A stretch of DNA of 24,878 bases from the IMG/VR virus record IMGVR_UViG_3300032285_004733, positions 1 through 24,878 of that record, one strand, 5' to 3'. Numbering within the stretch: the first letter of the stretch is position 1; each line of letters starts with the position of its first letter. Source of the DNA: a virus. The notes under the pieces were generated by a model, which saw only the letters and a program-made list of their open reading frames with translations, ran no database searches and was not told the DNA's origin. Positions 750-24,878 of the stretch are shown here, piece after piece. The position numbers and the translations under genes were made by a program.

Positions 750-2639
750 ATGGGATTATTTCAAAATCTTAAACGTTTATTCTCTTCAGACGTTGTTATT
801 AGGAACATAGGTGGAGATGAGTTAAGAGTAATAGACACAGATCGTATTCAATCATTAGGTACATTACAAACTAACGCGTTAGTTGATAGGTTTACTAAAA
901 TATACACAACATCTGGTGCTGGAATTTACAATGTAAACAACGTTTACAACTACCAAACATTAAGAGTACAACTTTATACTGATTATGAATCAATGGATAC
1001 AGACGCTATTGTGGCCTCTGCACTTGATATTATAGCTGATGAATGTACTTTAAAAAATGAACATGGAGAAATGCTTCATATTCGCTCAAGTGACGAAAAT
1101 ATTCAGAAAATACTTTATAATTTATTTTATGATGTATTAAATATTGAATTTAACTTATGGAGTTGGGCTCGTAATATGTGTAAGTATGGAGATTTTTATC
1201 TTAAATTAGAAATTGCTGAAAAATTTGGTGTGTATAATGTAATACCATTTTCAGCTTATTCAATTATACGTGAAGAAGGAACTGATGTTAAAAATCCAAC
1301 GTATGTTAGATTTAAATATGACCCAACAAGTGTATCTGGTATTACATCTCCACAAACACAATATGCTTTAGGCACATCTACATCAGATATTTACTTTGAA
1401 AACTACGAAATGGCTCACTTTAGATTAATAAGTGACGTTAACTATTTACCTTATGGTAGAAGTTACCTAGAACCAGGTCGTAAGATATTTAAACAAATGA
1501 TATTAATGGAAGATGCGATGTTAATACATCGTATTGTTCGTGCTCCTGAAAAGAGAATATTTTATATGAACGTAGGTGCTATTCCTCCAAACGAGGTAGA
1601 AGCATTTATGCAAAAAACAGTACAAAAACTTAAGAAAGTACCTTATGTCGACCCAACAACTGGTCAATATAACCTTAAGTACAATATGATGAACATGATG
1701 GAAGACTTTTACATACCTGTAAGAGGAAATGACCAATCAACTCGTATTGATACAGCAAAAGGATTAGAATATAACGGTATTGAAGACGTTGCTTATTTAA
1801 GAGACAAATTATTTGCTGCTCTTAAGATACCTAAAGCATTTATGGGATATGAAAAAGATTTAACTGGTAAAGCTACATTAGCAGCCGAAGATATCAGATT
1901 CGCTCGTACAGTTGAACGTATCCAAAGAATATTATTATCAGAATTAACCAAAATTGCCTTAGTACATTTATATAGTCAGGGATATGATGGTGAGTCTTTA
2001 ACAAATTTTGATTTATCATTAACTACACCTTCTATCATTTATGATCAAGAACGTATAGCGTTAATGAAAGAAAAAGTTGATTTAGCTTCACAAATAATGG
2101 AAAATAATTTGTTACCAACAGATTGGATTTACGATAGTATATTCCACTTTAGTGAAGATCAATTTGATGAATATCGTGATTTAATAGCTGAAGATAAAAA
2201 ACGTAAATTTAGACTAACTCAAATTGAAGAAGAAGGAAATGATCCATCAGAAACAGGTCAAGTATATGGTACACCACACCAACTAGCAACAGCATATGGT
2301 AAAGGTAGAAATGATGGTGAAGTACCAACAGGATATAATGAGAAAAATCCAAATGAACCAGTACACTTAGTTGGTCGTCCTGAAAAATCTGTATCAAATA
2401 TTAATAGACAAGATAACGCTTTTGGTAAAGATCGTCTTGGAACTAAAACATATCGCGCTGCAGGAGCAGACCAAGAAGATGTTTTAGCTAAAACCCAATG
2501 GAAGGGTGGTTCACCTTTAGCATTAGAAACGTATCTAAAAAATAAAGCAATGTTTGAAAAACTACCAGTGAGTCGTAAAACAACATTATTTGAAAATGAT
2601 ATGTTAAATGAAGATAATATTCGCGATGAAATTAAATAA
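750..2639 (+). CDS. Portal protein (gp20-like)
   Basis: This is the dodecameric ring at the unique head vertex through which DNA enters and leaves, and on which prohead assembly is nucleated. It is 629 aa, longer than T4 gp20 (about 524 aa). Recognisable features are the N-terminal MGLFQNLKRLFSSD start, the DAIVASALDIIADECT segment (about residues 87-103), and the stretch around residues 338-367 containing IEDVAYLRDKLFAALKIP, which matches the gp20 pattern of a displayed helix followed by a proline-rich turn. The last 110 or so residues (from about 515) are polar, glycine- and lysine-rich and probably account for the extra length. The start ATG has no Shine-Dalgarno but lies 16 bases after an ATATTTATA element. 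Position directly after the terminase supports the call. Confidence 0.9.
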   Translation: MGLFQNLKRLFSSDVVIRNIGGDELRVIDTDRIQSLGTLQTNALVDRFTKIYTTSGAGIYNVNNVYNYQTLRVQLYTDYESMDTDAIVASALDIIADECTLKNEHGEMLHIRSSDENIQKILYNLFYDVLNIEFNLWSWARNMCKYGDFYLKLEIAEKFGVYNVIPFSAYSIIREEGTDVKNPTYVRFKYDPTSVSGITSPQTQYALGTSTSDIYFENYEMAHFRLISDVNYLPYGRSYLEPGRKIFKQMILMEDAMLIHRIVRAPEKRIFYMNVGAIPPNEVEAFMQKTVQKLKKVPYVDPTTGQYNLKYNMMNMMEDFYIPVRGNDQSTRIDTAKGLEYNGIEDVAYLRDKLFAALKIPKAFMGYEKDLTGKATLAAEDIRFARTVERIQRILLSELTKIALVHLYSQGYDGESLTNFDLSLTTPSIIYDQERIALMKEKVDLASQIMENNLLPTDWIYDSIFHFSEDQFDEYRDLIAEDKKRKFRLTQIEEEGNDPSETGQVYGTPHQLATAYGKGRNDGEVPTGYNEKNPNEPVHLVGRPEKSVSNINRQDNAFGKDRLGTKTYRAAGADQEDVLAKTQWKGGSPLALETYLKNKAMFEKLPVSRKTTLFENDMLNEDNIRDEIK

Positions 2640-6066: not shown

Positions 6067-6654
6067 ATGAAAAAACCAATAAACGAAATAGCAAAATTAA
6101 AACGCTTAGCTGGCTTAATCACTGAAAGTGAATACCAAGAAGAAGTAGCAAACGTAGAAGAAGCTAAAACTCCAGTTTCTAAAGATAAAAAAATTCAAGT
6201 AATTAAAGAATGGATTTGGTACACATGCGATGAAGGGCAAATGAAAGATGATATCAACAAATATAATAAAATGGTTGATATGTATTTTGCTGATAAAGAT
6301 GATGTAACTAAAGAAGATTTTAAAAAGATTTGGGCTAAAGTGACTGAAGAATATGGTGTTGGTGATGTAGGTGCAGATTGGGACGCATTTCCTGAAACAT
6401 GGAATGATGTACAAAAAGGTAATTTAGTTGATCCTACACAACAATATGAAGGTAAAGAAAAAGTAGAAGAAGTAGAAAAAGTAGAAGAAGTAAGTGGTGA
6501 AGCATTTAAAAGAATGAATAGTTTAGTTAATAGAAATCATATTTTAAGTTTATTAGCTGCCGCTGAAGGTATAATGGGAGATTTATCTGCTGATGGATTT
6601 GAAGTTGAAGATATTCGTGATTATATTAATCAAATTATAGTAAACGATATTTAA
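6067..6654 (+). CDS. Putative prohead core / internal protein with RLAGL leader, 195 aa
   Basis: Unrecognised family. The N-terminus MKKPINEIAKLKRLAGLITE is notable. The KRLAGLI peptide reappears in variant form at the C-termini of the proteins at 9225 (NRLQKLAGLK) and 10207 (RRMQQLAGIIK). It is followed at once by I-T-E, a match to the (L/I)xE cleavage consensus known for T4 gp21. The body contains a Trp-rich globular part (EWIWYTC, IWAKVTEEY, DWDAFPETW, about residues 50-120), then a short acidic Lys-Val-Glu linker (about 130-145), and a helical C-terminus. A cargo or core protein with a cleavable targeting leader is plausible, but only by analogy with T4 internal proteins. The next gene starts two bases after the stop. 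Confidence 0.78.
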   Translation: MKKPINEIAKLKRLAGLITESEYQEEVANVEEAKTPVSKDKKIQVIKEWIWYTCDEGQMKDDINKYNKMVDMYFADKDDVTKEDFKKIWAKVTEEYGVGDVGADWDAFPETWNDVQKGNLVDPTQQYEGKEKVEEVEKVEEVSGEAFKRMNSLVNRNHILSLLAAAEGIMGDLSADGFEVEDIRDYINQIIVNDI

Positions 6655-6795: not shown

Positions 6796-8583
6796 ATGAC
6801 AACATTAGAATTATATAGAAAACATAAGTCTGGCGGCATTAGTCGTGAGAAATTCTTATATGAAGTAAGACGCGATAACAATTTACCGTTTATCACTAAT
6901 TTAACCTCATACACTGATGCGGTTCAAATCCTTAAAAACAAAGGTATTGTAACTGAAGAAACTAAAGAATCTAAAGCAGATGAAGCGGTTAAAGCTGAAG
7001 TTAAGCCTAAAAAAGCTACAGAACCTAAGTTAAAAGAACTTCATATTGATTATGCTAACCCATACGAATATCGTCATGGTTTAGCTCATGAATTAGACGC
7101 TATAGGTGAATACACAGACGAAGCTTTAGAAAAAGCTAAAACAACTGTATTAAAAAATCTAGCTAAAGATGCTAATTTTTATTCTAGTTTATTAAATCAA
7201 GAAAAATCACCATATGCTTTCAAAGCACCTGAAACAGACGCTCCAGGAATGCAAGCTAAAGCTGATGGTTACTTGAAAAAAGAATTAAAGAAAGACGAAA
7301 AAGCCAATGTTAAAGATAACTTAGGTAAGAAAGAAGAAGGTTCAGCTAAACCTAAAGGTGTTAAAGTAATGCCTGATAAAGGTGTAACTGGCTCTCAAAA
7401 AACTATTAAAGAAGGATTTGATGGTAAAAAAGTAGATGACATGATTAAATCAGGTAAAATAAAACCTGAAGAAGTAAAAGCAGCTGCTGAAAAAGCTATG
7501 AAAGGTGATTCAACATCTTTGATAGCTTTAATGGCTGGTCTTCCTGGTATTAGTTTATCTGAAGACACAGTTGAAGAAGGTAAAGCAAATAAATATATTA
7601 GTGTTGAAATTGAAGGTAACGAACAATTTCCTACATTAAATAAAGTATTAATTTCTGATTATCTTAAATCAGTAATTGATCCTGAAGAAATTGAATCTGT
7701 AGACACATTTATGAATGATGAAGAAGGATTTGAAGAATCATCAATGTATTTCTTTGATGCTGATGGAGATCCAACTGAAAAAGATGTTGAAGATTGGGCT
7801 AAAATGGAAATGAGTTATTATTTATTTTCTCAACCAGATGAATTTCCAGGCAAAGATGATATGATGGAAGCTAAAATAGAAGAAAATAAAATTGGTGGTT
7901 TATTAAACGCTGTAGCAGATGATTGGGGAGAGGATAGTGATTTATATAGTGAATTAGAAGATTCTCTTTCAGGATGGGCAGATAGAAATGGTCAATTATC
8001 ACCAAAAGGTAAAATTGCTGTTAAAGCGCTTTTATCTAACTGGGATGTATTAGATGATTATGGTCATTTTTTAGACGATACATCAGATGATGATTTAGCT
8101 CCTATAGACAGAATGTATAATTCAGATGCTTGGGTACAAGCTCAAAAAGATATGAATGAAGTAGATGCTCCTGACGCTCCAAATACAAATGAGTTATCTG
8201 ATGAGAATACTTTTGAAGATCTAATGAAAAAATATGATTGGTATTATGAGATGAGTGATGATCCAAGAGAATATAACGCTGGAACTGCTCTAGATAAACA
8301 ATTAAAATCATTAGCAAAATCAATTGGTATTGATAGAGCTGTTGAATTATTTAATCAATACGCTCCTGCTGATAGAAAAGTTGCAACTTCATTTTTTCAA
8401 ATGAATGAAGATAAACATGCTAAACTTAAAGAATTATTAAAAAAAGGATTAAAAGAATTAATAGATCCTAAAGCTATTCAAGCTGCTAAAACAACAGGTG
8501 TTGTAGTTAATATACCTGCTCAAGATACAACAGCTCAAACAGCAGCTAGAAATGCTAAAATTAATTTTAGTACATACAAATAA
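6796..8583 (+). CDS. Large acidic putative internal head protein, 595 aa
   Basis: No named family is recognised. The first 60 residues (MTTLELYRKHKSGGISREKF...) form a compact, basic helical domain. They are followed by a low-complexity Lys/Glu/Ala-rich stretch (about 60-80 and 150-215) and two acidic, Trp- and Asp-rich segments: about 265-355, including YISVEIEGNEQFPTLNKV, and about 365-520, including DWGEDSDLYSELEDSLSGWA. The C-terminus (about 540-595) returns to basic helices (HAKLKELLKKGLKELI) and an Ala/Thr-rich tail. L-S-E and I-V-T-E-type sites are scattered through it. The protein lies immediately before the prohead protease, so an inner-core or ejected protein is the likeliest role, inferred from context. 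The protease gene starts 4 bases after the stop. Confidence 0.78.
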   Translation: MTTLELYRKHKSGGISREKFLYEVRRDNNLPFITNLTSYTDAVQILKNKGIVTEETKESKADEAVKAEVKPKKATEPKLKELHIDYANPYEYRHGLAHELDAIGEYTDEALEKAKTTVLKNLAKDANFYSSLLNQEKSPYAFKAPETDAPGMQAKADGYLKKELKKDEKANVKDNLGKKEEGSAKPKGVKVMPDKGVTGSQKTIKEGFDGKKVDDMIKSGKIKPEEVKAAAEKAMKGDSTSLIALMAGLPGISLSEDTVEEGKANKYISVEIEGNEQFPTLNKVLISDYLKSVIDPEEIESVDTFMNDEEGFEESSMYFFDADGDPTEKDVEDWAKMEMSYYLFSQPDEFPGKDDMMEAKIEENKIGGLLNAVADDWGEDSDLYSELEDSLSGWADRNGQLSPKGKIAVKALLSNWDVLDDYGHFLDDTSDDDLAPIDRMYNSDAWVQAQKDMNEVDAPDAPNTNELSDENTFEDLMKKYDWYYEMSDDPREYNAGTALDKQLKSLAKSIGIDRAVELFNQYAPADRKVATSFFQMNEDKHAKLKELLKKGLKELIDPKAIQAAKTTGVVVNIPAQDTTAQTAARNAKINFSTYK

Positions 8584-8587
8584 TAAT

Positions 8588-9217
8588 ATGTCCAAACAAA
8601 TATTAATAGAATATTTTTCATTCTCACCTTCGCCTCGTTCTTTGAATGAGGCAAAGTTGTCTCCATCAAAAAACTTAGTTGTTTCTGGTGTTGTACAACG
8701 TGCTGAAGCTAAGAATCAAAACGGTAGAGTATACCCTAAAGAAACATTAGAACGTGAAGTAGAAAAATATGTAGCTGGACCAATTGCCGAAAACAGAGCA
8801 TTAGGTGAATTAGACCATCCAGATTCTTCTATTATTAATCTTAAAAACGTAAGCCATAATATTATAAAATTATGGTGGGATGGAGATGATTTGATGGGTG
8901 ATATTGAAGTATTACCAACACCAAGTGGTAATATATTAAAAGAATTATTTTTAAATAATATAACGGTAGGTATTTCTTCACGTGGTATGGGCTCAGTAAA
9001 ACCATTAGGTGAAAATACAGTCGAAGTACAAGATGACTTTGAATTATTATGTTGGGATTTCGTAAGTACACCTTCAACACAAGGTGCTTATATGAGACCA
9101 GTTGGATTAAATGAAAATTTTAATTCATCATTGTTCAAAGGAAACAAATATAATAAAATAAACAATTTAATATCAGAAATTATCTGTTCTCAAACAGGTA
9201 TTTGCTGTATAAAATAA
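8588..9217 (+). CDS. Prohead core protease (gp21-like, peptidase U9/S78-type)
   Basis: This serine protease is activated inside the closed prohead, where it degrades the scaffold and trims capsid proteins before DNA packaging. I choose the ATG at 8588 (209 aa) over an in-frame upstream TTG at 8552, because the twelve extra residues lie inside the previous gene and do not look like family sequence. The fold markers are a conserved VVSGVVQRAEAKNQNGRVYP start to the catalytic domain (residues 31-50), His77 in GELDHPDSS, Ser130/Ser131 in VGISSRGMGS, and Asp157 in LCWDFVSTPS. This His-Ser-Asp order and spacing matches T4 gp21. LIE (residues 6-8) and LNE (19-21) are possible self-cleavage sites. 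The size is close to T4 gp21 (about 212 aa). Confidence 0.92.
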   Translation: MSKQILIEYFSFSPSPRSLNEAKLSPSKNLVVSGVVQRAEAKNQNGRVYPKETLEREVEKYVAGPIAENRALGELDHPDSSIINLKNVSHNIIKLWWDGDDLMGDIEVLPTPSGNILKELFLNNITVGISSRGMGSVKPLGENTVEVQDDFELLCWDFVSTPSTQGAYMRPVGLNENFNSSLFKGNKYNKINNLISEIICSQTGICCIK

Positions 9218-9224
9218 TTTTAGT

Positions 9225-10016
9225 ATGCGTATTAGGATTAAAGAAGATGAGAATCAAGATTTAAAGGATCTCCTTAAAATGGATTATCCTTTATTTGTTA
9301 AAGAATTAGGTGATAACGTTAAAGATCCTAAATTTATTAACGCTATTAAATCTTTATCTGATAAACACCCACTTAATTTTAGAACAGTAGATCCTGTAGT
9401 TGGTAAATTAAAACCAACTCAAAATGAAATTGATGTTGATAAATCATTAAAATTCCCTTTAACTAATCCTACTTCAGCTAAAGTATGTTTAGACGGAGGC
9501 GTAATAGCAGTTGCTGGTAAACGTATTATTACTGGTGGTGGTGGTAAATTCATTATTGATGGTCATCATAGATGGTCTCAAGTATGCGCTTTAAATCCAG
9601 AAGCAAAAATTGCCGCTATTGATTTATCTGATATTAAAGACCCAATGAAAGCTCTTAAAGCAACTCAATTAGGTATTGCAGCTGATTTAGGTAAAATAGA
9701 TACTCAAAAAGTTGAAGGACAAAATTTACTTAAAATGAGTAAAGATGCTTTAATAGCGTATGTTATTAAAACAATTACTCCTGAAGTATTAGAAGTATTT
9801 AAAAAAGCAGGTAAAGGTGATAGTGCAGAAGCAGTAGCCCAATTTATTTGGTCTAATATTGAAAAAATGCAACAAAATAATCAACCAGTATCTGGAGCTC
9901 CTGAACGTGGACTTATGCCACAAACAGATGATGCTAAAAATTGGCAAGACTTAGCACCAAATGTAGATGCTATAAAAGAAATTAATCGCTTGCAAAAATT
10001 AGCAGGCTTAAAATAA
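9225..10016 (+). CDS. ParB/sulfiredoxin-fold domain protein with LAGL C-terminal tail, 263 aa
   Basis: Residues about 55-150 carry the ParB/Srx-like signature: KLKPTQNEIDVDKS (62-75), a glycine-rich turn GGGGK (104-108) and DGHHRW (112-117). In this superfamily the latter loop binds nucleotide or phosphate, and in some members it supports CTPase or nuclease activity. The N-terminal 50 residues are a charged helix pair, and the C-terminal 100 are helical and polar. The very end, INRLQKLAGLK, is a short peptide shared with the scaffold C-terminus and with the N-terminus of the protein at 6067, suggesting the domain is recruited to the prohead. No helix-turn-helix is seen, so a partition role is unlikely. 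The gene lies 7 bases after the protease and is closed by a strong terminator. The enzymatic activity is unknown. Confidence 0.82.
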   Translation: MRIRIKEDENQDLKDLLKMDYPLFVKELGDNVKDPKFINAIKSLSDKHPLNFRTVDPVVGKLKPTQNEIDVDKSLKFPLTNPTSAKVCLDGGVIAVAGKRIITGGGGKFIIDGHHRWSQVCALNPEAKIAAIDLSDIKDPMKALKATQLGIAADLGKIDTQKVEGQNLLKMSKDALIAYVIKTITPEVLEVFKKAGKGDSAEAVAQFIWSNIEKMQQNNQPVSGAPERGLMPQTDDAKNWQDLAPNVDAIKEINRLQKLAGLK

Positions 10017-10045: not shown

Positions 10046-10078
10046 GACCCAGCCCTGTAAGGCTGGGTCTCGTTTTTT
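10046..10078 (+). terminator. Rho-independent terminator after the protease/ParB-like gene block
   Basis: A perfect 9-bp GC-rich stem (GACCCAGCC / GGCTGGGTC) with a 6-base loop CTGTAA, followed by TCG and six T. It ends the transcript covering the core-region genes and separates it from the scaffold-capsid unit. Confidence 0.88.
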
Positions 10079-10206: not shown

Positions 10207-11328
10207 ATGACAAATCAAGAATTATTCAAGCAAGCAATTGCTGACGCTAAATCTGTACGTGATGCAGCAGTAGCGAATGCCAAAGCCGCTCTTGAAGAAA
10301 CTTTCACTCCAAGAATCATGAACATGCTTTCTGCTAAACTCAATGAGTTAGAAGAAGATATGGAAGAAGAAGGTAAGAAAGTTGAAGAAGAAGGCTTAGA
10401 AAACAATTATGGTTATGAAGGTGGAAAACAAAAACCTGAAATCGAAGAAGAAAACTACGAAGAAGGTAAAATGGAAGAAGCCGACCTTGAAGAAATTTTA
10501 GCTGAACTCGAAGCCGAGGAAGAAGGTAAAATGGAAGAAGGTAAAAAAGAAAAAGAAGAGGAAAGTAAAAAAGTTGAAGAATCTGCTGACGCTGACGCTG
10601 ACGACAAAATGGAAGAAGCTAAAGACGACGAAGCTAAAGAAGACGACGAAATTACCGAACTCACTGTTGACGAACTTAAAGACATTATTCGTGACGTATT
10701 AAAAGACGTTTTGGATAGTGAAGACGGAGAAGACCACGCTGAACCAGATGCTGATAACGCAGGTGGTGAAAGTGATCATGATGCCGATAATGCTGATGAA
10801 GATTCAATTAGCTTAGATGAACTTTTAGCCGAACTTGATAAAGAAGAAGAAGGCAAGAAAGTAGAAGAAGCTAAAAAAGAAGAAGAAGAAGGTAAAATGG
10901 AAGAAGGTAAGAAGAAAGACATGAAAGACATGGAAGAAGGTAAGAAAAAAGACATGGAAGAAGCTAAAAAAGATAAAAAAGATCTTGAAGAAGCTATCAA
11001 AACCATTAAATTCTTACAATCTGAACTTAATGAAGTTAATCTTTTAAATGCTAAACTTCTCTACACAAACAAAATCTTCAAAGCTAAAACTTTAAGTGAA
11101 GTTCAAAAAGTAAAAGTGGTTAAATCACTTGACAAAGCTACAAATGTTAAAGAAGCTAAAACTATTTATGATACTTTAGTTGAATCTTTAACAACCAAAG
11201 CTAAGTCTAACATTAGAGAATCAGTTGGATTTGCTTCTAAAGCAGTAGGTGTTGCACCTAAACAACCAATTGTAGAAAGCGACGCCGCTATTCGTCGTAT
11301 GCAACAATTAGCAGGTATTATTAAATAA
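10207..11328 (+). CDS. Prohead scaffold / core protein (gp22-like)
   Basis: The main internal scaffold on which the capsid shell assembles; in T4 it is destroyed by the prohead protease before packaging. The 373 aa begin with a basic helical part, then a very acidic Glu/Lys/Asp tract (about residues 45-260) made of repeats around MEEGKK and KKVEEA, with many L-x-E sites (LNE, LAE) suitable for gp21-type cleavage. The C-terminal 110 residues are a less charged helical domain (FLQSELNEVNLLNAKLLYTN, residues about 269-288) ending RRMQQLAGIIK, a likely shell-contact peptide. Position directly before the capsid gene and extreme acidity both match gp22. Isoleucine is written ATT or ATC, not ATA, unlike most genes here. 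T4 gp22 is about 269 aa, so this one is longer. Confidence 0.88.
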   Translation: MTNQELFKQAIADAKSVRDAAVANAKAALEETFTPRIMNMLSAKLNELEEDMEEEGKKVEEEGLENNYGYEGGKQKPEIEEENYEEGKMEEADLEEILAELEAEEEGKMEEGKKEKEEESKKVEESADADADDKMEEAKDDEAKEDDEITELTVDELKDIIRDVLKDVLDSEDGEDHAEPDADNAGGESDHDADNADEDSISLDELLAELDKEEEGKKVEEAKKEEEEGKMEEGKKKDMKDMEEGKKKDMEEAKKDKKDLEEAIKTIKFLQSELNEVNLLNAKLLYTNKIFKAKTLSEVQKVKVVKSLDKATNVKEAKTIYDTLVESLTTKAKSNIRESVGFASKAVGVAPKQPIVESDAAIRRMQQLAGIIK

Positions 11329-11357: not shown

Positions 11358-13013
11358 ATGAGTACAGTTCAATCTTTAATCGAATCTGCTAACCCATGGC
11401 AGTCACAGCAAGGCGATGCTAATCGCTTAGCTAAAAAATGGGATAAATCAGGTTTGTTGGAAGGTCTTAAAGATCACGACAAATCTAACATGGCAATGAT
11501 GCTTGAAAGTCAAGCAAAACAATTAGTAGTAGAATCTTCTCAAACTGGTACTGGTGGTACATTTGCTCCAGGTACAGGTGAACAATGGGCTGGCGTTGCT
11601 CTTCCATTGGTTCGTAAAGTGTTTGGTCAGATTGCTTCTAAAGAGTTCGTTTCAGTTCAACCAATGTCTCTACCAGCTGGTTTAGTATTCTATCTTGATT
11701 TCCAATACGGAACAACTAAGAATCCTTTCTCTTCTGGTGATTCTATGTATGGTACTGCTGATGCAACTGAAGGATTTGGTAACTTAGCTTCTGGTGGTCT
11801 TTATGGCTCTGGTCGTTTTGGTTATTCAATCAACCAATTCTCTGCTTCTGTAACTGTAACTACAGCTTCTGATGTAGCTTCAGCTTCTTTTGCTCAGATT
11901 GGATTTGATTCTAACTATTCTTCTTCTATCGTTGGTGGTTCTGATACTGCTTTATCAACTGTTAAAGCTATCACAATCGCAACTTCATCTATCAGTGTTA
12001 ATTTAGATTACAATGCTGTTAAAGCTATCTCTATTATCTCTGGTTCTATTGTTGAAGCTGATAACTTACATCAATTTGCTTATTTAAGTGGTGGTAATGT
12101 AGTATTATTCGTTTCTGCTTCTTCAGCTGAAGTAGCTGGACCAACTTCTGTTACTACTGTTTATTACAATAAGAAAACTGCTGATAACGCACGTGGTGAC
12201 TTCGAAGACGGAGCTGCTTATTCTAATACAGGTGGTGCTGCAGGTGTTGCTATTTCTATTCCAGAAATCAACGTTCAACTTCGTTCTGAAACTATTGCTG
12301 CTAAAACTCGTAAGTTAAAAGCACAATGGACTCCGGAATTTGCTCAAGACTTGAACGCTTACCAAAATCTTGATGCTGAAGCTGAATTGACTAGCATGTT
12401 AAGTGAGTACATCTCTCTTGAGATCGACCTTGAAATCTTAGACATGTTAATTGAGAATGCTCCAATTCAAGAATTCTGGTCTGCTAAAGTTGGTAACCAA
12501 ATTAATGGTAACAACCAATCTTTTGTTTCAAATACATCTGGTGTTTATTACACTCAAATGACATGGTTCCAAACTTTAGGTATTAAATTACAAAAAGTTT
12601 CTAACCAAATCCACCAAAGAACTTTACGTGGTGGTGCTAACTTCATGGTTGTTTCTCCAAACGTAGCTACTATCCTTGAATCAATTCCTGGATTTGCAGC
12701 TGATACTGATGGCGCAGCAGATAACATGAAATATGCATTTGGTGTTCAGAAAATTGGTCAATTGAATAGTCGTTACAAAGTATATAAGAATCCTTATATG
12801 ATCGAGAACGTTATTCTTATGGGCTTCCGTGGTAACCAATTCCTTGAGACTGGTGCCGTTTATGCTCCATATATTCCATTGATTATGACTCCATTGGTAT
12901 ACGATCCAAATACCTTCACTCCACGTAAAGGTATCATGACTCGTTATGCTAAGAAAATGGTACGTCCTGAATTCTACGGTAAGGTATTAATAGCTGATTT
13001 AAACGCTATCTAA
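11358..13013 (+). CDS. Major capsid protein (gp23-like)
   Basis: This HK97-fold protein forms the hexamers of the head. The 551 aa are close to T4 gp23 (521 aa). The clearest family block is residues about 314-350, beginning AKTRKLKAQWTPEFAQDL and continuing with DAEAELTSMLS, matching the gp23 'AKTR.LKAEYT.ELAQDL...DAE.EL' pattern. The N-terminal 60 or so residues are a charged helical delta-like region with LIE (7-9), LLE and LVVE (about 54-57) before SSQTGTGGTFAPG; cleavage near LVVE is the best guess by analogy with gp23 maturation after Glu65. Residues about 135-290 form a Ser/Thr/Val-rich insertion. Codon use is biased (almost no ATA, many C-ending codons), fitting high expression. It lies 29 bases after the scaffold, and a terminator follows. 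Confidence 0.95.
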   Translation: MSTVQSLIESANPWQSQQGDANRLAKKWDKSGLLEGLKDHDKSNMAMMLESQAKQLVVESSQTGTGGTFAPGTGEQWAGVALPLVRKVFGQIASKEFVSVQPMSLPAGLVFYLDFQYGTTKNPFSSGDSMYGTADATEGFGNLASGGLYGSGRFGYSINQFSASVTVTTASDVASASFAQIGFDSNYSSSIVGGSDTALSTVKAITIATSSISVNLDYNAVKAISIISGSIVEADNLHQFAYLSGGNVVLFVSASSAEVAGPTSVTTVYYNKKTADNARGDFEDGAAYSNTGGAAGVAISIPEINVQLRSETIAAKTRKLKAQWTPEFAQDLNAYQNLDAEAELTSMLSEYISLEIDLEILDMLIENAPIQEFWSAKVGNQINGNNQSFVSNTSGVYYTQMTWFQTLGIKLQKVSNQIHQRTLRGGANFMVVSPNVATILESIPGFAADTDGAADNMKYAFGVQKIGQLNSRYKVYKNPYMIENVILMGFRGNQFLETGAVYAPYIPLIMTPLVYDPNTFTPRKGIMTRYAKKMVRPEFYGKVLIADLNAI

Positions 13014-13110: not shown

Positions 13111-13647
13111 ATGCAAAATCAAATAGATATCGCTAAACATCCTTATGGATTAGGTGGTGGAACAATATTAACAGGATCAATGTCTACATCTGGAGATTAT
13201 TTTTGGTTTTATCCAATATCTTCTTCAGTATCTACTCTTAAAATGGCTGACCCAGCAGGTACTATACCAAGCACAGCGTATCCAAATGGTGTAGGAGTAT
13301 ATGGGTATATTACAGAAATAACTCAATCATCAGGAGCTTCTATAGTTTATTTAGGGGCGCCAAGTGAGCCAAGATATAATACTTTTGTACCTTATCCTAG
13401 TTTAACACCTAGTATAACTAAAACAATTAGTGTAACACCTAGTGCGACTTTACCAATTAGTGTTTCAGTAACACCTAGCATAAGTTTAACACCTAGTATA
13501 ACACCTAGTATAACCGCAACACCTAGTATAACACTTACTCCAAGTATTTCAAGAACACCTAGTATAAGTTTAACACCTAGTGTAACACCAAGTATTTCAA
13601 AAACACCTAGCATAACACCTAGTATAACACCAAGTCGTATACCATAA
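13111..13647 (+). CDS. Putative head decoration protein with Ser/Thr-Pro repeat tail, 178 aa
   Basis: Two parts are visible. Residues 1-95 look like a small beta-rich domain (GGGTILTGSMSTSGDYFWFY, then YGYITEITQSSGASIVYLGA). Residues about 96-178 are nothing but TPSI(S/T)x units of four or six residues, such as TPSISLTPSITPSITATPS. Such Ser/Thr-Pro tracts are usually extended and surface-exposed, and can be glycosylated in some systems. There is no signal peptide or membrane segment. The gene is its own transcription unit, with a terminator and ATATTTATA element on the 5' side and a terminator on the 3' side, immediately after the capsid gene. A capsid-surface (Hoc-like) decoration role fits this position, but that is inference; no named family is recognised. 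A related repeat occurs in the neck protein at 16476. Confidence 0.75.
   Translation: MQNQIDIAKHPYGLGGGTILTGSMSTSGDYFWFYPISSSVSTLKMADPAGTIPSTAYPNGVGVYGYITEITQSSGASIVYLGAPSEPRYNTFVPYPSLTPSITKTISVTPSATLPISVSVTPSISLTPSITPSITATPSITLTPSISRTPSISLTPSVTPSISKTPSITPSITPSRIP
13396..13644 (+). repeat. TPSI(S/T)x repeat tract
   Basis: About a dozen units of TPS plus one or three residues (4- or 6-residue spacing), ending TPSITPSRIP. At DNA level ACACCTAGTATAA-type units recur, so the tract could change length by slippage or recombination. Confidence 0.85.
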
Positions 13648-16475: not shown

Positions 16476-17291
16476 ATGTCATTTAATAACCCAGTAAGAA
16501 AATTCTATGTAGGAATACCAGCAGGAGGAAGTCCACAATCTCCTTCTCCTTCAAAGTCAGTTAGTCTAACACCTAGTAAGTCAAAAACACCTAGTGCTAC
16601 TATTTCAGTTAGTATGTCTCCTTCATTTAATGCTTCTAACTCTGCTACACCAAGTGTAACACCAAGTGTAACAACTACACCTAGTATTTCTAAAACACCT
16701 AGTATAACTCTTAGTGTAACACCTAGTAATACTTTATCACCATCTATATCAAGGACACCTTCTCCTACAACAACACCTACTCCTTCATTAGATTGCACTG
16801 ATTTAAATGTGTTTTCTCAAATGCAAGCAGCTGCTTTACAATTTATGCAAACTGCTATTGCTTACTATAAAATAAATTTACATGAAACTAAGAAAAATAT
16901 ATATGGTGAATCATTAGAAAAATGGTTTTATCAACCCTTCTTAATTAAATGTACTATTGAAAGAGATCCAGATACTTTAAATAGTGAAATGTTTGGACCT
17001 GATATTTCTAGAAATATAAAATTAACAATACCTAGAATAGCTTGGGATAATGAATTTTCAGGACAAATCCAAGGTGTTAATGTATTACCAGAAATTGGAG
17101 ATATAATATTTGATAGATCAACAGAAAGATATTATGAAATACATAATATTATATCTAATTATATTCCTATTAATGCTAATATTAATCCTGGATCATCTCT
17201 ATGTCCTCAAGCTGAATTAATAACTTATAATATAGAATGTGTACAAACAAGAGCAACAAGATTAAATTTATTACCTTATAAATTAATATAA
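16476..17291 (+). CDS. Neck protein (gp14-like) with N-terminal Ser/Thr-Pro repeat arm, 271 aa
   Basis: gp14 completes the head-to-tail connector with gp13 in T4. Residues about 115-271 fit gp14: a helix MQTAIAYYKINLHETKKNIY with GES, an RNIKLTIPRIAWDNEF stretch, then PEIGDIIFDRSTERYYEIHN, matching the T4 gp14 order of 'YGE', 'L.I.R' and 'P.EGDL.....L.EI'. Ahead of this, after MSFNNPVRKFYVGIPAGG, residues about 19-104 are a TPS/SPS repeat (TPSISKTPSITLSVTPS) of the same kind as in the protein at 13111. T4 gp14 lacks such an arm to my knowledge. If the core sits at the neck, the arm should project from it like a whisker or decoration. The stop overlaps the next ATG by one base, showing coupling with the gp15-like gene. 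Confidence 0.78.
   Translation: MSFNNPVRKFYVGIPAGGSPQSPSPSKSVSLTPSKSKTPSATISVSMSPSFNASNSATPSVTPSVTTTPSISKTPSITLSVTPSNTLSPSISRTPSPTTTPTPSLDCTDLNVFSQMQAAALQFMQTAIAYYKINLHETKKNIYGESLEKWFYQPFLIKCTIERDPDTLNSEMFGPDISRNIKLTIPRIAWDNEFSGQIQGVNVLPEIGDIIFDRSTERYYEIHNIISNYIPINANINPGSSLCPQAELITYNIECVQTRATRLNLLPYKLI
16530..16787 (+). repeat. TPS/SPS repeat arm in the neck protein
   Basis: An irregular series of TPS and SPS units with Ser/Thr/Lys/Val between them, some identical in protein and nearly identical in DNA to units at 13396-13644 (for example the SISKTPSIT block). It is less regular than the post-capsid copy. Confidence 0.8.
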
Positions 17292-18531: not shown

Positions 18532-21500
18532 ATGAGTAATTTAATACAAGGATATCAAATAGCGTTACCTTTTGAATTAAGTGGAAGTGATGGCTCTCTT
18601 TTATATAGTGGAAGCCAATTAATCATATCTGGATCAGTTGAAGCTTCTCAAGGATTTACAGGTTCATTATATGGAACATCTAGTTGGGCTGAAAATGCTG
18701 TAACAGCATCTTACGCTTTAAATGGAGGTGGAAGTAATATAGATACAGGTTCATTTGCTACAACTAGCTCAAATACATTTACAGGAATTCAAATAATAAC
18801 AGGAAGTAATGGTATATTAAAATATGGTGGAGATGCAAATTCAGTCAATCCAATATTTCCAACTCTAGTAGATATACATGCTAATAACTCATATCCATGG
18901 TTAGAAAGATTCTATAATGATTCATTTTCTCAACAAAATGCAGTAATGGCTTATTTTGCTTGGGATGATGGTAGATTCGTATTTCATAATGAAACAAATC
19001 AAAGTATCGGATTACAAGTAAATGGATATCAAGGTGAAAATGGATTATTAGTATATTCTGATAAAGTTGCTTTTGTTAATAATATAGAAGTAACAGGATC
19101 AATAAGTAATGGATTTGAAACTATAGCATCTGGTCCTTATTCACACGCAGCTGGAGATTTAACAGTAGCAAACGGATATGCGTCTCATGCTGAAGGATGG
19201 ACTACATATGCTAATGGAGGATTTTCTCACGCTGAAGGAATATATACTTCAGCTTCTGGATATAGTTCTCATGCTGAAGGTGATGAAACAGAAGCTAAAG
19301 GATATTACTCCCACGCTGAAGGAAATCATACCTTAACATCAGGATCTTGGTCACACGCTGAAGGATTTTACACAATAGCAGAAGGAATATATTCACACGC
19401 TGAAGGAGAAGCTACAAAAGCAATAGGTGAAGGTTCACACGCTGAAGGACTTGGTACAATAGCGTTAGGACCTTACCAACATGCTCAAGGTAGATATAAT
19501 ATTAGTTCATCTGATTCATCTGCTTTTATTATAGGTAATGGAATTAATGATGCTAATAGAAGTAATTTAATTTTTGCTTCAGGATCTGAACTTCAAATGA
19601 CAGGATCATTAAATGTAACAGGAAGTATAAATGTTGATGGTAACATAACAGGTTCTTTATATGGTACATCTAGTTGGGCAGAAAATACTATAACAGCTTC
19701 TTATTCTGACACTACAATAAGCGCGTCTTACTCAGACACTGCGGTAAGTGCTTCATACGCATTGACCGCTTCATACTCTTTAAACGTACCTACAGCCTCA
19801 TTAACTGCGTCTTACGCTTTAACAGCTTCATATGTTAATCAACTTAATCAAGACGTTACAATAACAGGATCATTAACAGTATCAGGTAGCACTGGAACAA
19901 CTATATTTTCATCTAATATTGATACTTTAATTTTAACTGGTTCTGCTATCATAACAGGATCATTAGATATAATTGGAAATGTAAATGTTGATGGTGGTAT
20001 AACTAGTTCATTACAAGGAACATCTAGTTGGGCTGAAAATGCTACCTCTGCTTCTTACGCTAAAACATCTAGTTATTCTAACAATATAAAAGGATCAACA
20101 AACCATATTCCTGTATTTGACTCACCAAATAGTTTAGTAACAAGCTCAATATATCAATCAGGTTCTTACAGTATCATTATAAACCAAGATAATGCTACTT
20201 CAGCTAACCCAGAAGCATTATATGTTTGGCAGCCAAGTACATCATCATTTAATGTAATAAGTGGTAAAGGTAATTTAAATAACTACTTACAACTTAATAT
20301 ACAAAATACTAATAATGGAAATTCTGCCTCTTCAGATGTTGTAGCTACTGCTAATAACGGGGATGAAACTACCAACTATATTGATATGGGTATCAATAAC
20401 CAAAATTTCAATGGTGGTATTGGAATAGGAAATGATGCTTATTTATATTCTACAGGTCGTCACCTTCATATAGGTAATGTTTCAAATTATCCAATTCAGT
20501 TTTTTGTTGGGGGTAATGATACAGATGCTAATAGAAAATTCTCATTAAGTCCTGATGATCAACATCAAATGACTGGTTCATTAAATATTAGTGGTAGTTT
20601 AATAACATCTAAAGATGTTTTAATTAATGGAATAACAGTTGGTCGTGGGTCTGGAAATGATAGTGATAGTGTTGTTATAGGGTTAACTGCGTTAGCAAAT
20701 AATAATAGTGGGTATCAAAATGTAGCTATAGGAGCGTTTGCTTCTCAATATAATATTGAAGGATCTCAAAATGTAGCTATAGGATATGAATCTTTCGCTG
20801 CTAACCATAACGGTACTAGTAATGTTATTATAGGATATCAAACCTTTACTAACAATATAGATGGAAATGATAACACTGTTATAGGTAAAAGTTCAGGTGG
20901 AGGAATTGTAACAGGATCCTATAATACAATTGTAGGAGCCAATACTTTTATACCTGCCGTCACTAACAATAATATTATCCTATCAGATGGTCAAGGTAAT
21001 ATTAAATATCGTTGGGATGGAATTCAAAATACTATATCTGGTGATTTAATAGTAACAGGTTCATTAACTGTCACACAAGGATTTACAGGATCATTATTAG
21101 GTACATCATCATATGCTACAAGTGCTTCATATGCTGCTACAGCTTCCTCTGCAAATAATTTTACTGTTAGAGGTACTCTCACAGCTCAAACTATTATAGC
21201 TCAAACTATAACTTCATCAACTGAATATATTACAGGTTCTACTCGTTTTGGTAGTTTACAAACAAATACTCATCAATTTACTGGTTCAGTAAATATAACA
21301 GGAAGCATAACAGGAACAAATGGAGTAGTAAATAATTTAACAGCTTCAAATGCTGTGACAGCATCTTACGTTCTTAATTCTGTAAGTGCATCTTTTGCAA
21401 CTAATGCTTCTACTGCTTCATATGTTTTAAACGCTATAAGTAGTTCATTTGCAACTAATGCTTCAACTGCATCTTATATTTTAAACGCTGTATCTGCATC

Positions 21501-24500
21501 GTATGCAACTAACGCCGCGACATCTTCTTATATATTAAATGCTATTTCAGCTTCATTTGCTTCAACAGCATCTTATGTTTTACAAGCAGTAAGTGCTTCA
21601 TTCGCTACAAACTCATTAACTGCTTCTTATATACTAAATGCTATTAGCTCATCATACGCTGCCACTGCTTCTTTAGCTCCATTATATGTACTCACTAGCG
21701 TAACATCTTCAATGTCTGTAGCTACAGCTTCTTTTGTAACAACTGCTCAAACAGCATCTTATGTTCTTCAAGCTGTATCTGCTTCATTTGCAACTAATGC
21801 AAATACAGCTTCATTTGTAGCAACAGCTCAAACAGCCTCATATGTTTTAAATGCTATTTCTTCATCTTTTGCTTCAACCGCATCTTTTGTTAATACAGCG
21901 CGAACAGCATCATATGTCTTAAACGCTATAAGTAGTTCATTTGCTACTAACGCTTCAACAGCTTCATATGTTGTGACAGCCAATACAGCATCTTATGTTC
22001 TTAATGCTGTGAGTGCTTCATTCTCAACTAATGCTTCAACAGCTTCATATGTTTTACAAGCAGTGAGTAGTTCATATGCTTCAACTGCTTCATATGTTAT
22101 AACAGCGAATACTGCTTCCTATGTTCTTAACGCGGTGAGTAGTTCATTTGCTACTAATGCTTCAACTGCATCATATGTTCTTCAAGCTGTATCTGCTTCA
22201 TTTGCTACTAATGCTTCAACATCATCTTATGTTTTACAAGCTGTATCTTCCTCATTTACTTCAACAGCATCTTATGTTGTAACAGCTAATACAGCATCAT
22301 ATGTTCTTCAAGCTGTTAGCGCTTCATTCGCTACACAAGCAGCAAATGCTACAACAGCCTCTTTTGTTATAACGGCTCAAACAGCTAGTTATGTACTTAA
22401 CGCAGTAAGTAGTTCATTTGCGACTAACGCCTCTACTGCCTCTTATGTTGTAACAGCTAACACAGCATCATATGTTTTACAAGCAGTAAGTGCTTCATTT
22501 GCTACTAATGCTAATACAGCTTCTTTTGTAACCACTGCTCAAACAGCTTCATATGTTCTAAACGCTGTAAGTAGCTCATTTTCATCAAATACAATTAGTG
22601 CTTCATACGCCGCGACAGCATCTTATGTTATAACAGCAAATACATCCTCATATGTTTTAAACGCTATAAGTAGTTCATTTGCTTCAATAGCATCATCAGC
22701 AGATAACTTTACTGTTAGAGGAACTCTTACAGCTCAAACTTTAGTAGTTCAAACTATAACCTCCAGTATTGATTATGTTACTGGTTCTACTAGGTTTGGT
22801 AGTTTACAATCTAACACACATATATTCACTGGTTCAATAAGTGTAAGTGGTAGTATAACAGGTACAAATGGAGTAATAAATAATTTAACAGCTTCAAACG
22901 CTGTGACATCATCTTATATATTACAAGCAGTAAGTGCTTCATTTGCAACAAACGCATCAACTGCTTCATATGTTTTACAAGCAGTAAGTGCTTCATTCGC
23001 TACACAAGCGGCAAATGCTTCAACTGCTTCATATGTTTTAAATGCTATAAGTTCTTCTTTCGCAACTAATGCTTCTACAGCTTCTTATATACTAAACGCT
23101 GTAAGCGCATCATTTGCTACAAATGCTTTAACAGCGTCTTATATTTTAAATGCTGTTAGTTCATCATTTGCTACTTCAGCATCATATGCTGTAAGTACTT
23201 CTTTAGCCGCTAACTCTATTTTATTAAATGGTACTGGTTCAACTGTATTTGCGACTACAGGTTCAAACATATTTAAAGGAAACCAAACTGTAACTGGTAG
23301 TTTATTCACTAGTGGATCAAATACTTTAATAGGTAATACTGTTTTAAGTGGTAGTATTAATATAAGTGGATCTACAATTGTAGACGGAACAAGTATTTTT
23401 AAGAACCACTCAATGACTGTTACAGGTTCAGTATTAATTAGTGGATCTACAACACAAATAGGGAATAACACTTTAACAGGAAATACTACACTATCAGGTA
23501 GTGTTATAATGTCAGGTTCTTTAGGTCAACCAAACCCAACACTTAGTATTTATGGAGACTTAAATCAAACAGGATATACTAGATATTTACCTGTAACTAC
23601 AAATATAGATACTTCAATATCTGCTTCTTATATATTTGTAAGTGGATCTACAAATGACTTATATTTTTCTCAAAATGGGTATGGATATAATAACGTAACT
23701 CGTTTACGTTGGTTAGAAGGTAATCTATATACTGGTTTATTATCAGGAGGTGTTTTAAGCTCAACAATAGGATCAACAACATTCAATTTATCATCAGGTA
23801 GTGGTATTATAGTAACATTAAATGCATTTACTAGTAGCCAAGATCCATTCCCTACAATACAATATGTTAGTTGGCCAACATATACTAACCAACCAATTAT
23901 AAATTCAGGTTCAGCTAAAATTACTTATGTTAGCATAACTTCAAATGGTTCTATTAATCAACAAACATTTCCAATTGGTAGTACAGACACTAACCAATGG
24001 GATACTCAAATTGAATTAGGAGTTGTATTACATTTGTCTGGTAGTGTGTCTACAGGTGTATATAATGCACCTCAATTAGCATATGGTTATGCTCAAAGAA
24101 CAGATGACTTTTTAAGAGCTTTTGGACCATTAAAAATATCAGGCCATACATTACAAGCTAGTGGTAGTTCACCAACATTAAGTATTAAAAAATCAAGCGG
24201 TACTGCTTACAATAATGGATCTAACTATGTTAATAATCCAAATCATCCATCATTAACATCTGATCCTGATATTAATATATCTAAAATTTATCGTTATTAT
24301 ATTTCTGGATCTACTCCTATAATTGACACTGGTATTGCAAATGCTGGATATACAGCAATTGATAGTAAACAATATGTTGACACAACAACAGGAACTTTAA
24401 CTGCAGTAGGTGCTGGTTTTTTTAGTATTCAAAGAGTTTTTTGGATTCCAAATTCACCAACAAATGCCTTTATTGTTTATTATGGTAATGCTAGATACGG

Positions 24501-24878
24501 TAATTTAGTAGATGCAAAAAATGGTATTGATACTGAAACTTTTTTAGAAGCTCCTAATACTGCTCAAAACGGAATATTATTAGGATATATTATTATTCAA
24601 GGTGGAGGAGCAGGAACCCCAGCGCGTGACTTATTAAACGCTAGTGAAGCCGCTATTATTCAAGCTGGATTATTTAGAAATGTAGGAGGAATAGGGTCAT
24701 CAGGTACCGCTCCTATAGCCAGTACATTAGCTGGACTTGCAGATGTATCCATTGCTAGTAGAACATCTGGTGATTTATTAGTTTATAATGGAGCTCTATG
24801 GGTTAATAATAAAACATTAAATGGTAACTACACTGTTAGTGGATCATTTACTACAAATGATGGTATAACAGCAGTAAC
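18532..24878 (+). CDS. Giant modular fibre / adhesin protein, 3' partial (at least 2,115 aa)
   Basis: One frame stays open from the ATG at 18532 to the window end with no stop. In order it contains: an N-terminal Ser/Gly-rich beta region; four copies of a GSLxGTSS(W/Y)A module (18661, 19651, 20005, 21088); a nine-unit 14-residue SHAEG repeat (19141-19491) like the YadA head beta-roll; an NVAIG-type repeat (20668-20940) common in phage fibres; a 70-residue module present twice (21151 and 22699); two arrays of a nine-residue repeat (TASYVLNAV type); and a globular region (about 23600-24700) ending in a DVSIASRTSGDLLVYNGALW module. Such repeat families are typical of trimeric fibres. A tail-fibre or whisker role, possibly with receptor binding at the unseen C-terminus, is inferred. 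The chaperone or attachment end lies outside the window. Confidence 0.88.
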   Translation, partial: MSNLIQGYQIALPFELSGSDGSLLYSGSQLIISGSVEASQGFTGSLYGTSSWAENAVTASYALNGGGSNIDTGSFATTSSNTFTGIQIITGSNGILKYGGDANSVNPIFPTLVDIHANNSYPWLERFYNDSFSQQNAVMAYFAWDDGRFVFHNETNQSIGLQVNGYQGENGLLVYSDKVAFVNNIEVTGSISNGFETIASGPYSHAAGDLTVANGYASHAEGWTTYANGGFSHAEGIYTSASGYSSHAEGDETEAKGYYSHAEGNHTLTSGSWSHAEGFYTIAEGIYSHAEGEATKAIGEGSHAEGLGTIALGPYQHAQGRYNISSSDSSAFIIGNGINDANRSNLIFASGSELQMTGSLNVTGSINVDGNITGSLYGTSSWAENTITASYSDTTISASYSDTAVSASYALTASYSLNVPTASLTASYALTASYVNQLNQDVTITGSLTVSGSTGTTIFSSNIDTLILTGSAIITGSLDIIGNVNVDGGITSSLQGTSSWAENATSASYAKTSSYSNNIKGSTNHIPVFDSPNSLVTSSIYQSGSYSIIINQDNATSANPEALYVWQPSTSSFNVISGKGNLNNYLQLNIQNTNNGNSASSDVVATANNGDETTNYIDMGINNQNFNGGIGIGNDAYLYSTGRHLHIGNVSNYPIQFFVGGNDTDANRKFSLSPDDQHQMTGSLNISGSLITSKDVLINGITVGRGSGNDSDSVVIGLTALANNNSGYQNVAIGAFASQYNIEGSQNVAIGYESFAANHNGTSNVIIGYQTFTNNIDGNDNTVIGKSSGGGIVTGSYNTIVGANTFIPAVTNNNIILSDGQGNIKYRWDGIQNTISGDLIVTGSLTVTQGFTGSLLGTSSYATSASYAATASSANNFTVRGTLTAQTIIAQTITSSTEYITGSTRFGSLQTNTHQFTGSVNITGSITGTNGVVNNLTASNAVTASYVLNSVSASFATNASTASYVLNAISSSFATNASTASYILNAVSASYATNAATSSYILNAISASFASTASYVLQAVSASFATNSLTASYILNAISSSYAATASLAPLYVLTSVTSSMSVATASFVTTAQTASYVLQAVSASFATNANTASFVATAQTASYVLNAISSSFASTASFVNTARTASYVLNAISSSFATNASTASYVVTANTASYVLNAVSASFSTNASTASYVLQAVSSSYASTASYVITANTASYVLNAVSSSFATNASTASYVLQAVSASFATNASTSSYVLQAVSSSFTSTASYVVTANTASYVLQAVSASFATQAANATTASFVITAQTASYVLNAVSSSFATNASTASYVVTANTASYVLQAVSASFATNANTASFVTTAQTASYVLNAVSSSFSSNTISASYAATASYVITANTSSYVLNAISSSFASIASSADNFTVRGTLTAQTLVVQTITSSIDYVTGSTRFGSLQSNTHIFTGSISVSGSITGTNGVINNLTASNAVTSSYILQAVSASFATNASTASYVLQAVSASFATQAANASTASYVLNAISSSFATNASTASYILNAVSASFATNALTASYILNAVSSSFATSASYAVSTSLAANSILLNGTGSTVFATTGSNIFKGNQTVTGSLFTSGSNTLIGNTVLSGSINISGSTIVDGTSIFKNHSMTVTGSVLISGSTTQIGNNTLTGNTTLSGSVIMSGSLGQPNPTLSIYGDLNQTGYTRYLPVTTNIDTSISASYIFVSGSTNDLYFSQNGYGYNNVTRLRWLEGNLYTGLLSGGVLSSTIGSTTFNLSSGSGIIVTLNAFTSSQDPFPTIQYVSWPTYTNQPIINSGSAKITYVSITSNGSINQQTFPIGSTDTNQWDTQIELGVVLHLSGSVSTGVYNAPQLAYGYAQRTDDFLRAFGPLKISGHTLQASGSSPTLSIKKSSGTAYNNGSNYVNNPNHPSLTSDPDINISKIYRYYISGSTPIIDTGIANAGYTAIDSKQYVDTTTGTLTAVGAGFFSIQRVFWIPNSPTNAFIVYYGNARYGNLVDAKNGIDTETFLEAPNTAQNGILLGYIIIQGGGAGTPARDLLNASEAAIIQAGLFRNVGGIGSSGTAPIASTLAGLADVSIASRTSGDLLVYNGALWVNNKTLNGNYTVSGSFTTNDGITAV
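19141..19491 (+). repeat. 14-residue SHAEG repeat, nine units (YadA-head-like beta-roll)
   Basis: SHAAG at 19141, seven SHAEG units, then QHAQG at 19477, every one exactly 42 bases after the last, with Gly/Ala/Ser/Thr between. A 14-residue period with a Ser-x-Ala-x-Gly core is the known repeat of the trimeric YadA head, a left-handed beta-roll. Confidence 0.88.
20668..20940 (+). repeat. NVAIG-type fibre repeat
   Basis: SVVIG, NVAIG, NVAIG, NVIIG, NTVIG and NTIVG units separated by polar, Asn/Gly-rich spacers (GYQNVAIGAFASQ, GSQNVAIGYESFAAN). This pattern is well known in phage fibres and trimeric adhesin-like proteins. The repeat is looser in spacing than the SHAEG one. Confidence 0.75.
21151..21360 (+). 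repeat. 70-residue fibre module, copy 1
   Basis: Codes for the NFTVRGTLTAQT... VTGSTRFGSLQ-type module ending NNLTASNAVT, immediately before the first nonapeptide array. A second copy of the same length lies at 22699-22908. Confidence 0.85.
21361..22698 (+). repeat. Nonapeptide array 1 (TASYVLNAV / SASFATNAS type)
   Basis: Consecutive nine-residue units of the form (T/S)(A/S)S(Y/F)xxxAx, typically alternating TASYVLNAV and SASFATNAS, with occasional six-residue units that break the phase. Roughly 48 units fit in 1.34 kb. Unit DNA sequences differ at synonymous positions (TCA/TCT, GCT/GCA, GTT/GTA), so the repeat is much better conserved in protein than in DNA. Confidence 0.88.
22699..22908 (+). 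repeat. 70-residue fibre module, copy 2
   Basis: The second copy of the module at 21151-21360, 210 bases with no length change. Clear residue matches include FTVRGTLTAQT, TGSTRFGSLQ, GSITGTNGV and NNLTASNAVT, with substitutions between. It is followed by the second nonapeptide array. Confidence 0.85.
22909..23202 (+). repeat. Nonapeptide array 2
   Basis: About eleven further units of the same nine-residue repeat (for example TASYVLQAV SASFATQAA), directly after the second 70-residue module, before the sequence turns into GSxxxSGS-type beta repeats. Confidence 0.85.

Follow-up and report, generated by a model that had tools for sequence, protein, structure and literature searches.

In phage T4, internal head proteins and Alt carry a capsid targeting sequence (CTS), one short terminal peptide shared by otherwise unrelated cargo and adjoined by an L/I-x-E site cut by gp21; Alt is trimmed at both ends in the parts of the sources that treat processing (PMC9026906, PMC3012670), and the cut falls after L/I-X-E (PMC9026906). 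The T4 signal is N-terminal, and the portion of PMC9958956 that deals with the core finds it absent from other T4 core proteins and still describes the holding of cargo in the prohead core as mysterious. In P1, a terminal signal of DarB, also N-terminal, suffices to load a reporter into the head, and the phage appears to have no separate scaffold in the relevant section of PMC9024508. ParB/Srx domains occur in late phage proteins as well, as in the DdrB-like ParB of polyvalent proteins, and the passages on DdrB locate it in the P1 head (PMC5512222, PMC9024508). Two further groups with this domain are the ParBc_2 (PF08857) or Tox-ParB domains of polymorphic toxins, which are delivered enzymes with a DGHHR motif, and the free serine kinases SerK and SbnI.

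We analyzed positions 1-24,878 of the IMG/VR record IMGVR_UViG_3300032285_004733, and these 24,878 bases in full are referred to as the window. The genes follow a T4-type head operon order: a terminase fragment, portal gp20 (750..2639, + strand; family matches), five hypothetical genes, a gp21-type prohead protease (8552..9217, +; Peptidase_S77, Pfam 9.1e-29; phrog_207, 8.7e-55), a ParB-fold gene (9225..10016, +; an ORF of 263 aa whose fold was modeled), the scaffold, the major capsid protein (11358..13013, +; 57.5% identity to an annotated major capsid protein), and a gene named as PhoH-like from its sequence and its synteny with Flavobacterium phage immuto. The scaffold, of 373 aa in the gp22 position (10207..11328, +), was assigned by position since its gene lies directly 5' of the major capsid protein gene; it is acidic and had no family match in Pfam or PHROGs. 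The preliminary description of this DNA had placed the ParB-like gene between protease and scaffold within a head assembly operon, and both statements held. The embedding is also true of relatives with only about 35-38% identity to the window protein (L076, L086, L089), so the position after gp21 is either old or repeatedly regained. The gene directly follows gp21 in the window, L001-L004, L007, L076, L085, L086, L089 and L090.

The ParB-fold gene begins 7 nt past the protease stop. The start at 9225 has a poor ribosome site and was chosen by its closeness to that stop and by alignment with relatives; an internal ATG at 9279, with a better ribosome-site score, was dropped because the residues before it align with relatives. 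If 9279 were the true start, the leader described below would be absent. A promoter scan around the gene gave no excess over shuffles, and the interval between the ParB-fold and scaffold genes contains a terminator-like hairpin of nine pairs with a T run (10046..10069), such hairpins being seen once against 1.5 expected by shuffles. It was noted that two proteins with TPSITPS-type repeats are encoded near the head and neck genes (13111-13647 and 16476-17291), and that a reading frame with TASYVLNAVSASFATNA-type repeats (18532-24876), 2115 aa or more in length and probably a tail fibre-like protein, runs off the window.

The window protein had no Pfam match at E<=1, and hence no Pfam helix-turn-helix, so its assignment to the ParB/Srx group rests on a structural model and profile searches. 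The AF2 model, built with 24 sequences, reached a pLDDT of 87.8 and a pTM of 0.83, and its predicted fold is the alpha+beta fold of ParB/Srx proteins. Foldseek against the PDB is weak by itself, with nothing at E<=0.001 and a best hit at E 0.016 (ParB with CDP). After re-alignment with VIA, 29 of the first 31 rows were titled ParB, Noc, KorB, PadC, free serine kinase, SbnI or sulfiredoxin (Z 5.0-3.4), and the first unrelated row after those 31 came at Z 2.6. A free serine kinase headed the rows (Z 5.0; 85 residues at 2.9 A), SbnI (4.8) and ParB (4.7) being tied with it, and the best viral model match was an unstudied 'ParB/Sulfiredoxin' phage protein (E 9.5e-24). The ParB-like domain with DGHHRW that the preliminary description saw, and with it the ParB/Srx pocket fold, have computational support.

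The pocket is highly conserved among the 49 aligned members. In the motif P64-T-Q-N-E68 (9414..9428, +), P64 and Q66 are invariant and T65 and E68 are conserved in at least 90%. D112-G-H-H-R-W117 (9558..9575, +) is invariant in 49/49, an invariance inflated because the relatives were found partly through this hexapeptide, and it includes G113-H-H-R116, also in 49/49, which fits the GxxR phosphate motif (Box II) of the superfamily as given in the part of PMC12704722 that defines it. L144, N167 and N211 are likewise invariant, and L62, S74, S118, N124, P140 and R228 reach at least 90%. A family-specific motif, M231-P-Q-T-D-D (9915..9932, +), follows the fold, with M231, P232 and Q233 at 90% or more.

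DGHHRW is identical in free serine kinase chains, SerK among them. The catalytic residue of SerK is Glu30, for which E68 is a candidate equivalent. PF08857, described as 'putative ParB-like nuclease', matched 23 of 49 members weakly at E<=0.01 (best 1e-4), and the SerK profile matched 11 of 49 at the same threshold. The phage-encoded window protein itself falls below the curated cut-offs of both PF08857 (23.6 bits; no match at E<=1) and SerK NF053625 (380 bits), the latter being its only NCBIfam match at 15.7 bits. Unlike DdrB, it is a single domain with a scaffold-type tag, and no profile similarity to DdrB was found (hhalign probability 0.1-0.2, against a single P1 sequence). The catalytic Cys of sulfiredoxin sits in G-G-C-H-R; the invariant D-G-H-H-R has no Cys there in the 49 members, and a sulfiredoxin was rejected. 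A partition protein seems unlikely as well, since there was no Pfam helix-turn-helix match and, in agreement with the preliminary description, the ten head-operon proteins scanned included no ParA-like family that could serve as a partner.

A single-sequence scan yielded 29 viral loci from 34 candidate stretches. An alignment scan gave, among the matches listed, at least 206 relatives in 600 stretches, of which the best 80 of 206 were kept. In all, 96 family members were readable. Three of the 50,697 phage records matched, those of Microcystis phage Mel-JY01 and of two huge phages. In 29 of the 96 family loci, many of which are short, the fetched DNA contained a T4-type gene for terminase, portal, protease, capsid or PhoH. 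The ParB-fold gene of L009 lies among genes for SSB, a UvsX-like protein, an exonuclease and a DnaB-like protein, and in L016 and L018 it is followed by ORFs of matching sizes.

Beyond the phages, and beyond the preliminary description, exported-looking bacterial proteins carry the same domain. We found 26 bacterial loci in genome contigs from 81 stretches. Mycobacterial members have a signal-peptide-like N-terminus, as read by eye, one of them with DUF4214 (L251; 1.5e-9), a planctomycete member has FG-GAP repeats (L257), and one TM6 member has a hydrophobic N-terminus; from their sequences, these relatives look exported. Export of the domain would be consistent with a delivered enzyme and speaks against a partition clamp. 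The domain was present in 6 of 118 genomes of one genus, and a PF08857 search of 229 genomes of one bacterial class gave nothing at E<=1e-6, with the controls silent too. It was also noted that the exported-looking actinobacterial proteins with the DGHHRW domain (L251-L256, L259, L260, L262-L266, L271) are mostly mycobacterial.

We then compared the tail of the window protein with that of the scaffold. After a predicted cut at E252 (I-K-E), the window protein ends in INRLQKLAGLK (9981..10013, +; modeled as a helix over residues 251-260), and the scaffold ends in SDAAIRRMQQLAGIIK after I-V-E (11278..11325, +). The LAGL-type tail that the preliminary description regarded as shared with the scaffold proved real and more general: it is a portable tag at protein termini, present on scaffolds and on many further phage proteins. 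Among 1266 non-redundant complete ORFs from the first 97 loci including the window, from which ORFs with identical last 60 residues had been removed beforehand, the motif occurred 30 times, with 23 C-terminal, 7 N-terminal and 0 interior cases against shuffle expectations of 0.03, 0.09 and 0.23; the tag and tail patterns were defined after looking, and the shuffles, like the permutations below, ignore common descent. One N-terminal case in the window, MKKPINEIAKLKRLAGLITE (6067..6126, +), belongs to a further head-operon protein found by the motif search. Since this first motif was derived from the same loci, a narrow form, R-M-Q-K-L-A-G, was fixed before the viral collection was scanned, and it gave at least 123 matches in at least 120 stretches. 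The matches listed were 83 C-terminal, 34 N-terminal, 4 interior and 2 at contig ends, the 83 C-terminal ones lying 2-6 residues from the stop. Among these 83, 70 were in the scaffold position, directly before the capsid gene, which identifies the tag as the scaffold tail. In the same matches, the remaining tagged proteins were unrelated to one another, and the N-tagged ones were mostly short. Pfam on ten tag-bearing proteins and PHROGs on ten returned nothing informative, and five tag strings were not found in the open-access PMC papers searched. Unlike the T4 CTS, the tag is the C-terminal tail of the scaffold and can stand at either end of a protein.

Within the ParB family, the tag is N-terminal in L005, L008, L012, L062, L066 and L069, and C-terminal in the window, L001-L004, L006, L060, L061, L078-L080, L082, L085, L088 and L093. 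LAG-like tails were found on 17 of 71 family C-termini as compared with 12 of 537 control ORFs, 11 of these 12 being the gene before the capsid gene; ORFs largely covered by a longer ORF, and family members whose 3' ends were open, had been removed before the comparison. It was noted that the ParB-fold ORFs of L005 (3012-4019), L008 (3264-4256) and L196 run in frame into a second tagged sequence; one tag stands at the N end and another close to the C end, which resembles a fusion of two tagged cargo proteins. In addition, three N-tagged proteins (L131:949-1575, L192:5275-5901, L211:904-1488) have hydrophobic stretches and are possibly membrane-active cargo.

Tags also resemble the scaffold tail of their own phage, with tag and own tail reading RFQKLANL and RFQTLANI in L012, RWAKLANI and RWKKLANL in L093, ILSG and ILSG in L022, and VLAG and VLSG in L098. 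Across eight lineages, the mean identity was 5.12 of 8 positions with the own scaffold versus 3.73 with other scaffolds, and 9 of 40,320 permutations were as good, in a test that ignores common descent and takes in only lineages with a LAG-type tag on the ParB-fold protein. Minus the two LSG lineages, the count was 3 of 720; with L076, whose degenerate tail placed it outside the main test, 183 of 362,880 permutations reached the observed value. The untagged clades are the main unexplained fact against the packaging reading. The large L033-L059-type clade has tails (RRLKELMKYNKK) that match the LAG tag weakly, and its three phages with a scaffold seen (L042, L045, L046) have LAG scaffold tails. 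The combination of a LAG scaffold tail and an untagged ParB-fold protein occurs in L024, L031 (the isolated phage Mel-JY01), L042/L045/L046, L068, L073, L086, L089/L090 and L092. Such clades may use other leaders, or may not be packaged; an [LI].E site lies in the leader region of 66 of 71 members, in the last 30 residues of 41 and in both of 40, as counted without a control. A second kind of basic C-terminal tail, of the LRKAIRKAVLQEIKRLKK type, was seen in L019, L068 and L073, and it may be another loading tag.

The tag adjoins gp21-type L/I-x-E motifs at both ends of the window protein, a feature that the preliminary description did not include. The N-terminal leader MRIRIKE (9225..9245, +; pLDDT below 50 for residues 1-7) has a predicted cut after E7 (I-K-E), and E7 and E252 are the only two [LI].E sites in the protein, bracketing its folded part, whereas the scaffold has 15. 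More generally, in 32 of 33 distinct cases an [ILVM]-x-E lay no more than ten residues after the N tag (control rate at interior positions 0.354), and for C tags the motif stood in the 18 residues ahead of the tag in 49 of 61 (control 0.46). Core [LI].E sites were depleted in the 21 tagged members (17 seen, 31.8 expected; a count this low in 1 of 1000 shuffles), weakly depleted in the 53 untagged members (71 against 83.3) and not depleted in 20 bacterial relatives (34 against 26.6; observed/expected 1.28), counts in which related members are not independent draws. The [LI].D motif showed no depletion. By pattern, the window protein has the terminal peptide with an adjoining L/I-x-E of T4-type internal head proteins.

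Cultured phages with the tag were also examined. In immuto the motif occurred twice in 160,000 of 160,366 bases (352 ORFs of at least 60 aa, spurious ones included), once in the scaffold tail and once as the N-terminal MKKQILSEQFRRMQKLAGIITE of immuto35A_187, an ORF of 154 aa whose tag has an I-T-E, and no ParB-fold homologue of this family was found. The laboratory host of immuto is Flavobacterium sp. LMO8. The immuto scaffold, recognized by its tail and its position before the capsid gene, is immuto35A_203 (L293:11095-12336), whose annotation as 'DNA polymerase phi-like protein' is, on these grounds, likely a misannotation. Mel-JY01 has the tag on its scaffold and one chance-looking interior match, and its ParB-fold homologue (WWT39393.1) lacks the LAG tag, its gene lying a long way from those of the head. 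No paper naming Mel-JY01, and none joining 'ParB-like nuclease' with 'virion proteome', was found among the open-access PMC papers searched.

From the computed fold, conserved pocket, tag, terminal tag placement, tag-scaffold similarity and cut-site placement, we infer packaging, cleavage, ejection and chemistry as follows. The C-terminal helix RLQKLAGLK would copy the tail of the phage's scaffold, and the protein would consequently dock in the prohead core at the scaffold's site, which is probably the inside of the capsid protein; the major capsid protein is the likely docking partner. After assembly, the gp21-type protease, as the presumed trimming enzyme, would cleave behind the two I-K-E sites, at residues 7 and 252. 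Leader and tag would be lost and a compact ParB/Srx domain released, with a predicted mature form of residues 8-252. As no further L/I-x-E lies in 8-252, the domain would survive when the scaffold is degraded. By analogy with T4 Alt and internal proteins, it would stay with the DNA and most likely be ejected into the next host cell, where the P-T-Q-N-E/D-G-H-H-R-W pocket may bind a nucleotide and a phosphoryl group may be transferred or hydrolyzed, most likely as in SerK. Uptake into the head through the scaffold-shared tail, as the preliminary description had suggested, gained computational support, and we regard packaging as quite probable. The whole explanation, an internal T4-type head protein with a scaffold-mimicking tag, trimming at both ends, probable ejection and SerK-like chemistry, is favored with some reserve. 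SerK-like phosphoryl transfer is itself a tentative first guess, with a nuclease as the second.

The position of the gene between protease and scaffold, and the tail common to the latter, would also suit a head assembly factor, a prohead core component whose tail builds or sizes the core and whose fold is an undelivered relic; T4 gp67 and gp68 are core proteins degraded by gp21 in the relevant part of PMC9958956. We consider this quite unlikely, given that the pocket is invariant in 49 members, unlike a relic, and that immuto, a related isolate, does without the gene. Degraded core proteins should moreover be rich in cut sites, as the scaffold is, and both sites of the window protein are terminal. 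The replication-gene neighbours in L009 would instead suit a cytoplasmic enzyme or regulator of DNA metabolism made during infection, with the tail as a general interaction helix and an incidental head-operon placement, and ParB-fold proteins commonly bind DNA or nucleotides as far as the pertinent section of PMC12704722 goes. This is hardly probable either, as, with one exception among the 537 control ORFs, LAG-type tails occur only in this family and on the gene that precedes the capsid gene, the head-operon position is conserved at about 35% identity, and the bacterial relatives look exported.

A delivered nuclease would share packaging and ejection with the favored internal head protein, but its pocket would cut DNA, such as the host chromosome, instead of moving a phosphoryl group. 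The PF08857 matches in 23 of 49 members speak for it. So does DGHHR, the motif conserved in ParB toxin domains; the part of PMC3482391 that covers them proposes a nuclease activity, which is a prediction for that group. DNase activity is reported for some ParB/Srx proteins in the corresponding passage of PMC5512222. A free nuclease beside packaged DNA would have to be held inactive, however, and a kinase heads the structural matches (ParB is tied with it, within 1 Z), so that we view a nuclease as unlikely, while deserving consideration.

Taken more broadly, it is possible, at somewhat short of even chances, that a whole group of T4-type phages from aquatic settings employs the scaffold's C-terminal tail for loading, as a portable tag that is cleaved off and stands at one or the other terminus of dozens of proteins unrelated to one another. 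The ParB/Srx enzyme would then belong to this cargo, as a phosphotransferase or toxin that the phage delivers and that has bacterial relatives leaving the cell by ordinary export. Tox-ParB differs in this respect, phage head delivery being what is proposed here. The idea is testable now, because a cultured phage, immuto, bears this tag on its scaffold and on a further ORF that the scan detected. If true, the cargo ejected into the host would be readable from sequence, including that of uncultured phages. A tag equal to the scaffold tail would give a concrete, testable answer to how cargo is held in the prohead core, namely that cargo docks where the scaffold docks, and it would add a delivered ParB-fold enzyme and a loading tag that can be cleaved off and functions at the N or the C end of a protein.
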